A stretch of DNA of 64,000 nt from an uncultured Chryseobacterium sp. Lineage in GTDB: Bacteria > Bacteroidota > Bacteroidia > Flavobacteriales > Weeksellaceae. Of this stretch, positions 41,915 through 62,732 are shown piece after piece. The translations under genes and the position numbers were made by a program. Below the pieces are notes generated by a model, which saw only the letters and a program-made list of their open reading frames with translations, searched no databases and had not been told where the DNA came from. The stretch is taken from positions 1-64,000 of the forward strand of contig CAJYLO010000023.1 in the NCBI GenBank assembly GCA_913776245.1, given 5' to 3'. The number at the start of each line of letters is the position of its first letter. The stretch's first letter is position 1.

Positions 41915-42649
41915 TTATATTACAACGTGACCCAGCTTGATGAGCTTTTCCCTGTTGAGGATTTTAATATTCCTTCCTTCCACAATGATCAGATCATCCT
42001 GCTTGAATTCAGAAATCAGGCGAATGGCGCTTTCTGTCGCGGTTCCAATCAGGTTGGCGATTTCTTCTCTTGTGAGTGAGATTTTGATAAATCCTTCTGG
42101 ATCCGTTCCAAGCTTTTGCTCAAGCAAAACCAGGATTTCTGCCAGCCTTTCCCGCACTGTTTTCTGAGCCAGGAATGTTACCGTATTAGCAGATTCTCCC
42201 AATTCATAAGCAATTTTCTGAAGCATTGCATAGGATAATTTCGGATCTACTTCCAATAATTTCAGGAAAACATCAGATGGCAGAAACTGAACTTTCATTG
42301 GTGTCATAGCCTCGGCTTTTGCCTGAAAATTCTCACCACAAAGCAGTGAACGGTAACCGATCAGATCATTTTCCTTGCAAAATCTCAGAATCTGATCTTT
42401 TCCGTAAACACCGGATTTTGACAGCTTAGCCGTACCCTTTTCTATAAAATACACACCTTTTGGCGACTCGCCGTCTTCGAAAACAGTTTCACCTTTGGAA
42501 AACTCAAGGATCTTCAGGGCCTTTTCATAAACTTCGAAATCTTCCTGAGAAAGGTTTGCACGTAAAGAATCTTTGTGAAATGCTTTTGAGAAATTTTGTT
42601 CTATAACCAATTGTTGTTCAAGAGACATACCTATGACATTTATCAGCAA
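41915..42649 (-). CDS. Crp/Fnr-family transcriptional regulator
   Basis: cNMP-binding fold GETVFEDGESPKGVYFIEKGTAKLSKSG; HTH ISLTREEIANLIGTATESAIRLISEFKQDDLI. Confidence 0.92.
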   Translation of the reverse strand: MLINVIGMSLEQQLVIEQNFSKAFHKDSLRANLSQEDFEVYEKALKILEFSKGETVFEDGESPKGVYFIEKGTAKLSKSGVYGKDQILRFCKENDLIGYRSLLCGENFQAKAEAMTPMKVQFLPSDVFLKLLEVDPKLSYAMLQKIAYELGESANTVTFLAQKTVRERLAEILVLLEQKLGTDPEGFIKISLTREEIANLIGTATESAIRLISEFKQDDLIIVEGRNIKILNREKLIKLGHVVI

Positions 42650-45102: not shown

Positions 45103-45211
45103 ACTCTTTTATTTAGAGTGATTATAAATTAATCCAATTTATGCTCTTCTGACCAAAGTCAGCAATTTTAACTAAATTTGGCAACTGTTTTATTGTAAAT
45201 TTGTAGCTGAT

Positions 45212-47928: not shown

Positions 47929-48813
47929 ATGAAAAGAAGAACACCTGTTTACATTAATATTCTAATCGTTTTGGGATTATTACTTGTTGTGTTTTATATG
48001 TTTTCGCAGACATCAGATTTCCTGACATCTAAATATTTCCTGGGAACTGCTGTTATCAGTATCATTGTTGTATTCATCCAGGCTGCAATTGGTGATCTGA
48101 TCGAAAACGAAAAGTTTAAGAAACTGACAGATGAGGAAAAAGCTTCTTATCTTTCAGAAACTAAAATCCCTTACTTCCAGTACCTTTGGAATGGTGCATT
48201 CAAAAGCCAGTCTGAGAAGGAAGAAAAAGACATCCTCATTGACCACGGATTCGATGGAATCATGGAGCTTGACAATCAGCTTCCTAAATGGTGGTTAGGT
48301 CTTTTCTACTTTGGTGTGGCCTATTGCATTCTTTATGTTTCATCTTATTTCCTAACGGATTTTGCACATCCTTATAAAGAATATGACCAGGAATATAAAG
48401 AGCAGATTGCTGCTGTGGAAGATTATATGAAAACAGTCCCACAGGCTACCATAGAAACTGCAAAATTCTCTGAAGATAATGTAGAGGAAGGAAAAGTAAT
48501 TTTCCAGACTAACTGCGTTACCTGCCACGGAGAAGGCGGAAAAGGAGGAATTGGTCCAAACCTGACGGACGGTTTCTGGATCAACCAGCCTGAGAAAACT
48601 CTATATAAAAATGTTTTCTACATGGTAGAAAACGGTAGTAAGAATAACCCTACGATGCAGGCTTGGGGTAAAAACGGTATCCTGACCGGAAATGATATAG
48701 AAAAAGTGGCAGCTTATGTCTATCATATCAATCAGGAACAAGCTCCGATTACACCTGCCCAAGGTGGAGCCGCTCCTCAGGGAACTGAAGCGCACTGGGA
48801 AAAATCTAACTAA
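47929..48813 (+). CDS. ccoP: Cbb3 oxidase subunit III (cytochrome c)
   Basis: FDGIMELDNQLPKWWLGLFYFGVAY; CVTCHGEGGKGGIGPNLTD. Confidence 0.93.
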   Translation: MKRRTPVYINILIVLGLLLVVFYMFSQTSDFLTSKYFLGTAVISIIVVFIQAAIGDLIENEKFKKLTDEEKASYLSETKIPYFQYLWNGAFKSQSEKEEKDILIDHGFDGIMELDNQLPKWWLGLFYFGVAYCILYVSSYFLTDFAHPYKEYDQEYKEQIAAVEDYMKTVPQATIETAKFSEDNVEEGKVIFQTNCVTCHGEGGKGGIGPNLTDGFWINQPEKTLYKNVFYMVENGSKNNPTMQAWGKNGILTGNDIEKVAAYVYHINQEQAPITPAQGGAAPQGTEAHWEKSN

Positions 48814-48821
48814 AATAACAT

Positions 48822-48912
48822 AAAAAAGAGATTGTCAATGATATTGTTCCTCCGGAATAATATTTGAAAATTGAACTTATAAAGATTCAATTTTCGGGAC
48901 AATCTCTTTTTT
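48822..48912 (+). ncRNA. Candidate structured RNA/attenuator: three-way junction
   Basis: P1 aaaaaagagattgtc/gacaatctctttttt 15 bp perfect; P2 atattgttcc-tcc-ggaataatat; P3 gaaaattgaa-N10-ttcaattttc; followed by further T residues. Confidence 0.55.
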
Positions 48913-48929
48913 TTATCTAATAAATAAAA

Positions 48930-50381
48930 ATGAGTACAACAGAAAAAAAATACAACGAAGCCGAAAGCTGGGTGGTAGAAGCTGAAACATTCAGAGACTC
49001 TGTTGGGACAATGGATAATACCGGAAAAAGAAGATGGGTATATCCAAGAAAACCGAAAGGAAAATATACCAACTACAGAGTTTTAGTCAGCATTTTATTA
49101 TTAATCATATATTTCTCAATACCGTTTCTTAAGATCAACGGGAATCCTGTTTTACTAATTAACATTATAGAAAGGCAATTCTACATTCTTGGTCAGCCTT
49201 TTTATCCTCAGGATTTCTTTATTCTTGCTTTAGGTGCCATCACTTCTCTTGTTTTTATTATTCTTTTTACAGTGGCCTTCGGAAGGATTTTTTGTGGATG
49301 GATATGTCCGCAGACCATCTTTTTAGAAATGATCTTCCGTAAAATTGAATACGCCATAGAAGGTGACCGAAATAAGCAGATAAGACTTGATAACCAGGCC
49401 TGGGACACTGAAAAGATCTGGAAAAGATCTCTAAAATGGTTTATTTTTATATTGATATCACTCATCATTACCCACATTATGTTTATGTATATTGTTGGTT
49501 ATGAAGAAGTATTCCATATAATGCAGCAAGGCCCGTTTGAAAAACCAACCAATTTTTTGGTGATGGTTTTATTTACTGCAGCCTTTTATTTTGTATTTGC
49601 CTGGTTCAGAGAGCAGGTTTGTACAATGGTCTGCCCATATGGCCGTTTGCAGGGTGTATTGATAGACAAAGAAACCATTAATGTCTTCTATGATTACAAA
49701 CGTGGTGAAAATCGTTCCAAGTGGAAAAAAGGCGAAGACAGAAGAGCCGCTGGAAAAGGCGATTGTATAGACTGTAAACAATGTGTGGTAGTTTGTCCTA
49801 CAGGGATTGATATCCGCGACGGTCTGCAAATGGAATGTGTAAACTGTACAGCCTGCATAGATGCTTGTGATGAAGTAATGGTAAAAGTAGGGCTGCCAAC
49901 AGGACTGATAAGATATGCGTCAGAAAGAGAAATAGAGGACCAGGCAAGATTCAAATTTACTACCAGGATGAAAGCTTATTCGGTAGTTTTGGCAATACTT
50001 ACCGGATTCTTAGGATTTCTTTTATATAACAGAGGCGATATGGAAGCTAAATTCCTGAAACAGCCCGGGTCCACTTTCTTTATCAGAGATGGTAAAATCA
50101 CCAATACTTACAATTATACTTTCCTCAATAAATCGAATGAAACCAAAACTGTTATTATCAAGATTATTGAGCCTAAGAATGGAGAGATCACTTCCAGCGC
50201 TGCCAACAGAATTATCCTGAAAAGAGATGCTATGAGCAAAGGAACTATCAATGTAAGCTTCCCGGAAAGCCAGATCAAGCTGTCTAAGCAGAACCTCACT
50301 TTGGGCGTCTACGATATGAATGGAGAACTTTTGGATTCTTACAACACCTATTTCGAAGGTCCCTTTAAATTCCAATTTTAA
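48930..50381 (+). CDS. ccoG: Cbb3 oxidase accessory protein CcoG (RdxA/FixG)
   Basis: FCGWICPQTIFLEMIFRKIEYAIEGDR; CIDCKQCVVVCPTGIDIRDGLQMECVNCTACIDACD. Confidence 0.95.
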   Translation: MSTTEKKYNEAESWVVEAETFRDSVGTMDNTGKRRWVYPRKPKGKYTNYRVLVSILLLIIYFSIPFLKINGNPVLLINIIERQFYILGQPFYPQDFFILALGAITSLVFIILFTVAFGRIFCGWICPQTIFLEMIFRKIEYAIEGDRNKQIRLDNQAWDTEKIWKRSLKWFIFILISLIITHIMFMYIVGYEEVFHIMQQGPFEKPTNFLVMVLFTAAFYFVFAWFREQVCTMVCPYGRLQGVLIDKETINVFYDYKRGENRSKWKKGEDRRAAGKGDCIDCKQCVVVCPTGIDIRDGLQMECVNCTACIDACDEVMVKVGLPTGLIRYASEREIEDQARFKFTTRMKAYSVVLAILTGFLGFLLYNRGDMEAKFLKQPGSTFFIRDGKITNTYNYTFLNKSNETKTVIIKIIEPKNGEITSSAANRIILKRDAMSKGTINVSFPESQIKLSKQNLTLGVYDMNGELLDSYNTYFEGPFKFQF

Positions 50382-50387
50382 TTAATT

Positions 50388-50837
50388 ATGAAAAAATTAC
50401 ATTGGGGGCACGGACTGGCCATCGCTTTAGGCTGTTTCATCCTATTTATCCTGTTTTTGATCTTCATATTCCCGATGGGAAAGCAGAATTCGGAAATGAT
50501 ATCCAATAACTATTACGAAGAAGAGCTGGAATATCAGAAAGTAATAGATGCGAAAAAGAACGCGGCAAAACTGGAAAGTCAGCCAATTTATAAAGTGACA
50601 AATGAGGGAATACAAATCACCTTTCCCGAAGCTGTAAAACCTGATGGGAACAAAGCCGAATTTGTACTGTTCCGTACCGATGATTCTAATCTGGATGTTA
50701 AAAAAGAGGTTGCAATTTCCCAGAATTATTTTATAATTCCAAAGAAAGTGATCGTAAAAGGTTCCTATACGCTTAAGCTCAAATGGACAGAAAATAAAAT
50801 ACCCTATCAGATAGATTACGATATCTTATGGAAATAA
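50388..50837 (+). CDS. fixH: FixH family protein
   Basis: 149 aa with one TM, position after ccoG. Confidence 0.8.
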   Translation: MKKLHWGHGLAIALGCFILFILFLIFIFPMGKQNSEMISNNYYEEELEYQKVIDAKKNAAKLESQPIYKVTNEGIQITFPEAVKPDGNKAEFVLFRTDDSNLDVKKEVAISQNYFIIPKKVIVKGSYTLKLKWTENKIPYQIDYDILWK

Positions 50838-62189: not shown

Positions 62190-62672
62190 CTAATTTTTTG
62201 TTTTATTCTGGCTTCTGAAAAAAGAAACCCTTTCCTTAAAAGTTTTCTGATCTATATCCACAAGAAAATGGGCAAACTGAGTTAAGGTCTTTTCAGGCAT
62301 TTTTTCAGCTCTCCTCGCTTTCATATTAAAGTAAATAACTGTGAGCCAGAAAACAGCATGTACCACACCTTTATCATCTTTCATCAGCAATTCTACCACC
62401 GCTGTAAGGTCATCAACAAAAATGGTTTTGCTGGTAATAGTTACCGTAGAATTATATCTTACTTCTTTTAGATAAGCAATTTCATTCTGGATGGTGACCC
62501 AGGTACAGCCTGTTTCTCTTGTATATTGCTCGTAAGTAAACCCGTAGTTCTGTTCTACGTGATCTTCCCTGGCATTAAGCATATATTCGAGATATTTTAC
62601 ATTATTCAGATGACCGATAGGATCACAATCTGCGAAGCGGATCTTTACAGTAGATGAAAATTCTTTTTCCAT
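62190..62672 (-). CDS. Acyl-CoA thioesterase (4HBT-like)
   Basis: VKIRFADCDPIGHLNNVKYLEYMLNAREDHVEQ. Confidence 0.9.
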   Translation of the reverse strand: MEKEFSSTVKIRFADCDPIGHLNNVKYLEYMLNAREDHVEQNYGFTYEQYTRETGCTWVTIQNEIAYLKEVRYNSTVTITSKTIFVDDLTAVVELLMKDDKGVVHAVFWLTVIYFNMKARRAEKMPEKTLTQFAHFLVDIDQKTFKERVSFFRSQNKTKN

Positions 62673-62685
62673 AATGCAAAAATAA

Positions 62686-62714
62686 AAAAACCGCTCCGAA
62701 TAAGAGCGGTTTTA
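62686..62714 (-). terminator. Intrinsic terminator after ompH pair
   Basis: aaaaccgctccgaataagagcggtttta. Confidence 0.8.
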
Positions 62715-62732
62715 TCATTTATTAAGATAATG

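Follow-up and report, generated by a model that had tools for sequence, protein, structure and literature searches.

The question raised by this locus is what a three-way junction RNA does inside an operon for cbb3 oxidase, a respiratory enzyme of low-oxygen conditions. In the window, by which we mean the whole 64,000-nucleotide stretch analyzed, this element occupies positions 48822-48912 in the spacer between ccoP and ccoG. As shown by Pfam analysis, the surrounding genes are all on the plus strand in the order fixS, fused ccoNO, a short ORF, ccoP, ccoG, fixH and a gene for a DsbD_2-family membrane protein, with matches to FixS, COX1+FixO, FixP, FixG and FixH; the short ORF at the ccoQ position gave no Pfam match. 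ccoP (FixP; 47929-48813; FixP_N and Cytochrome_CBB3) terminates with a stop codon at 48811-48813, upstream of the element. ccoG (FixG; 48930-50381; Fer4_18 and FixG_C) starts 15 nt past the T tract of the element, and fixH/ccoH (50388-50837; FixH) is the downstream gene expected to be affected along with it. The original prediction had placed the element between ccoP and ccoG, and this gene context was borne out. Upstream of ccoS, the palindrome CTGAC-CAAA-GTCAG was observed together with two TAAATTTG boxes (45149-45162 and 45173-45203), which are likely to represent a CRP/FNR-type site and the operon promoter. A gene for a CRP-family regulator was also present near this region, on the minus strand (41915-42649).

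The outer helix, P1, is a perfect 15-bp inverted repeat on the plus strand, identified by folding and by counting inverted repeats. Its 5′ arm, AAAAAAGAGATTGTC (48822-48836), kept in 24/24 genus genomes, pairs with the 3′ arm, GACAATCTCTTTTTT (48898-48912). P1 is A/U-rich, with G-C in 4 of its 15 pairs, and the 61 nt between its arms are taken up by two hairpins. P2 (48841-48863) has arms at 48841-48850 and 48854-48863 that form 10 pairs, one of them G-T, and P3 (48866-48895) has arms at 48866-48875 and 48886-48895 that form 10 perfect pairs. The original prediction had described these three helices with coordinates correct to the base, together with junction linkers of 4 nt (48837-48840) and 2 nt (48864-48865), to which a third linker of 2 nt (48896-48897, GG) can be added. 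It had also described the 3′ arm of P1 as running into a T tract; this terminator-like feature consists of eight T's (48907-48914) overlapping the P1 base. The folding check that it had proposed returned the three-way junction as both the MFE and the centroid structure (RNAfold, −36.2 kcal/mol), with a stability z of −8.0 and 0/200 shuffles as stable. When the window was scanned for perfect 15-bp inverted repeats whose arms lie no more than 80 nt apart, three places were found, as compared with none in 30 dinucleotide shuffles. The three-way junction is not a chance fold.

The same structure was found in the ccoP-ccoG spacer of 23/23 other Epilithonimonas genomes examined (24/24 with the source genome). 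A covariance model built from 22 distinct sequences and searched in the 24 genus genomes identified exactly one place per genome, always between ccoP and ccoG; the second match reported in many genomes was the opposite strand of the same place. When 200 family genomes were searched, the model recovered the genus itself and, outside it, just two genomes of a single further genus (one being Soonwooa buanensis, as judged by its identical spacer), besides weak 37-nt matches, one of which was inspected (L064) and was an ordinary hairpin. On the ccoP tree, the carriers of the three-way junction formed one clade with 99% SH-aLRT. Within the genus, the spacing to the ccoP stop and that to the ccoG start were both conserved (24 sequences), the sequence of P2 and the junction was conserved beyond what pairing requires, and P1 was 95% identical across genome pairs with 49% identity at ccoP four-fold sites. 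No Rfam 15 family reached its gathering threshold, the best being SNORD70 (28.3 bits vs 50), and none matched in five related loci either. The element is a well-supported structured RNA that is absent from Rfam.

Covariation was analyzed among the ccoP-ccoG spacers of relatives, as the original prediction had suggested, and the pairing was kept through compensatory changes. In the MAFFT alignment, 97.0% of cells were paired, as compared with 46-59% when the partners were slid, and changes on both sides were observed in 10/30 pairs, above all 500 shuffles. In the alignment fitted to the model, double-changed pairs rose to 13 once the second genus was included. P3 was the most variable helix in sequence and length, with double-sided changes in 5/7 modelled pairs, and P2 covaried in 3-6 of 11 pairs. 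Furthermore, G-U occupied 98 cells and A-C 9 cells of the model-fitted alignment, indicating that the RNA transcribed in the direction from ccoP towards ccoG is selected, rather than the DNA or the antisense strand. A DNA-level palindrome, a cruciform and an antisense terminator were ruled out by this bias. Judged from these substitutions, selection acts on the plus-strand, ccoP-to-ccoG transcript. As controls, two ordinary terminators of the window, those after ompH and after the zinc peptidase gene, were traced across the genus. The latter was not conserved, and the former was also rather conserved, with two stem versions, indicating that sequence conservation alone is no proof of a sensor. 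It is the branched shape and the compensatory changes that set the ccoP-ccoG element apart from ordinary terminators.

We compared the element with the features of intrinsic terminators and of switching RNAs. A stable stem followed directly by a U tract (6-8 T) was present in 24/24 genus sequences. However, the P1 loop is not the short loop of an intrinsic terminator but 61 nt long, filled by P2 and P3, and the element was therefore filed as terminator-like, in a branched form. From the end of the T tract to the ccoG ATG, the genus has 11-17 nt. The sigma-A −7 element of flavobacteria is TAnnTTTG (PMC9723704), and a promoter scan identified no such box in any ccoP-ccoG spacer of the genus; a ccoG promoter in the spacer was rejected by this criterion. 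Since the box is missing and only 11-17 nt remain, the ccoG mRNA should traverse the element, as far as promoters of the TAnnTTTG type are concerned. In the ccoP/ccoG context, the pair probability of P1 exceeded 0.8 in 24/24 sequences, and no fold competing with P1 was found in the 150 nt before and the 60 nt after it, so that nothing points to a classical two-state switch. Nor was an antiterminator or a switch seen in the RNA around the element; the two mutually exclusive folds of a riboswitch or switching attenuator were not found. Either the junction or the conserved P2 may still be the target of a factor. The literature on transcript ends in Weeksellaceae yielded nothing usable.

The equivalent spacers of relatives were also analyzed; the automatic terminator finder missed several obvious hairpins, and its results were checked by eye. 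At the equivalent ccoP-ccoG position, most related genera had a single hairpin followed by a T tract, unrelated in sequence to the three-way junction. In the lineages with the longest spacers (L027, L029, L111 and L126), a TAnnTTTG box was placed after the hairpin, a layout suggestive of a separate promoter for ccoG. In Chryseobacterium, Kaistella and others (L089-L147), the spacer contained a well-conserved AACATAATTYGTTAT hairpin with a T tract. A strict pattern of this hairpin matched two of 60 family genomes, with a single occurrence in each, so that it seems locus-specific too. One other family of the order (L204, L209) showed long-loop terminator-like stems, AAAAAGTCGGGCT...AGCCCGACTTTTTT, which by eye appear to be another independent form. 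No terminator was found between ccoP and ccoG in Cloacibacterium (L123) and Halpernia (L104), indicating that it is not essential, nor in several more distant families. A second, diverged ccoNOP operon (L193, L194-L198), whose ccoP is about 55-59% identical, showed, in the six genomes sampled, no ccoG match over the 5.5 kb fetched and no three-way junction after ccoP. A general ccoP 3′ element was thus rejected for these six genomes.

Among the closest known systems is the HRC-8-4 motif of Rhodobacterales (Brewer et al. 2021, PMC8632094), which is described as terminator-like, lies mainly between ccoNOQP (ccoP) and ccoGHIS (ccoG) and has no proven ligand. The present element resembles it in the ccoP-ccoG location and terminator-like nature. 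However, HRC-8-4 is described as one terminator stem whose tip carries conserved nucleotides and is reported only from Rhodobacterales, whereas the element described here is a three-way junction from Weeksellaceae (Bacteroidota). Given this difference in shape and phylum, the likeness is probably convergent. Ordinary terminators of the genus, such as that after ompH (62680-62720), share the A-rich 5′ flank, the stem, the T tract and possible genus-wide conservation, but they have a short loop in place of the two capping hairpins. In most genomes, the ompH terminator is also followed immediately by a TATTTTTG promoter box, which the ccoP-ccoG element lacks. In most of the genus, this box at ompH (62672-62732; L148-L171) stands just before the next start codon, so that terminator and promoter form a compact pair; in some genomes the stem is another one, CCGTCTCG. 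The CATAAT hairpin of Chryseobacterium, Kaistella and others shares with the present element the ccoP-ccoG position, the long stem followed by a T tract and, mostly, the lack of a promoter box thereafter, although it is a single hairpin with the unrelated stem sequence AACATAATTYGTTAT. We class the ccoP-ccoG element as an intra-operonic terminator-like RNA of unusual branched form.

Taken together, we propose that the element probably acts in cis, as an intrinsic terminator within the cbb3 operon RNA that allows partial read-through, in other words as a constitutive attenuator. The original prediction had suggested an attenuator; the conserved plus-strand RNA pairing, the lack of a promoter box and the hairpins of sibling genera speak for it, while termination itself, its partial efficiency, an order of folding and a stoichiometric purpose are inferred. 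Once RNA polymerase has passed ccoP, P2 and P3 would be the first to fold and would draw the arms of P1 together, and P1 would then zip against the U tract and halt a fraction of the polymerases. The products would be a capped ccoSNOQP mRNA and a less abundant read-through ccoG-fixH mRNA. The output of ccoG-fixH would be lower than that of ccoNOQP, the assembly factors being needed, though not one per enzyme, and the element may also shield the upstream mRNA at its 3′ end. CcoG and FixH are required for cbb3 assembly, and termination would for this reason be partial rather than full; were termination very efficient, too little ccoG would be made, which is presumed not to happen. The terminator reading is supported by a conserved plus-strand RNA structure at a single location, with a T tract and with neither a promoter box nor room for one downstream. 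It is also supported by the different, yet terminator-like, hairpins that siblings keep at the equivalent position, and by the second ccoNOP operon, where, in the six genomes sampled, the element is missing along with the ccoG match (5.5 kb). Against it are the A/U-rich P1, the large 61-nt branched loop, which is unusual for an intrinsic terminator, and the relatives without a terminator there (Cloacibacterium and Halpernia).

The conservation of the helices would equally be expected if the element were a 3′-end stabilizer or processing site, with the full-operon transcript cut or trimmed back to P1, and a stable stem beside the ccoP stop codon would be a barrier to 3′ exonucleases. However, the uninterrupted T tract in 24/24 sequences and the terminator-plus-promoter layout in sibling lineages are specific to termination, and one terminator is able to serve both roles. 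We thus consider such processing rather unlikely, and likewise its corollary, that the ccoSNOQP mRNA outlives the ccoG-fixH mRNA so that stoichiometry comes from decay, not termination. If the element were instead what remains of a small, MITE-like mobile element that became fixed in the common ancestor of Epilithonimonas and Soonwooa, P1 would represent its terminal inverted repeats, and these repeats and the single origin on the tree would fit. Nevertheless, the element is present in one copy per genome in the 24 genomes, the P1 13-mer occurs elsewhere only 0-2 times, and the compensatory changes together with the G-U bias reflect selection as RNA, making such a relic highly improbable. A repeat or MITE origin was rejected, as the element was not found in several copies and gave a single BLAST match in its own genome.

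The conservation of P2 and the junction beyond pairing needs, and the identity of P1 far above that of four-fold sites, would also suit a regulated attenuator, in which read-through into ccoG changes when the junction or P2 is bound by a protein or by a small molecule (copper, haem or a redox signal). The Rhodobacterales motif at the same gene junction has been proposed as a ligand- or protein-binding terminator (PMC8632094). However, no alternative fold rivals P1 in context, and, unlike most riboswitches, the element has no other gene context in the genus; in the 200 family genomes, other contexts appeared only as the weak 37-nt matches. Ordinary terminators of the genus, such as that of ompH, can be well conserved too. 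Regulation of this kind is therefore unlikely in our view, and we consider it quite unlikely that the element represents a new class of branched, signal-responsive terminator that senses copper, haem, oxygen or an assembly protein, for instance CcoG itself. If it did, the three-way junction would tune ccoG-fixH read-through to a cbb3 assembly cue, and unrelated terminator RNAs would have evolved for one job at ccoP-ccoG in Bacteroidota and Rhodobacterales.

Partial termination, our preferred reading, offers a simple and testable account of how the cbb3 structural genes may be expressed above the assembly genes within one operon. The unrelated terminator-like RNAs at ccoP-ccoG in Weeksellaceae and, as published, in Rhodobacterales point to a recurrent need to limit the expression of ccoG at this junction.
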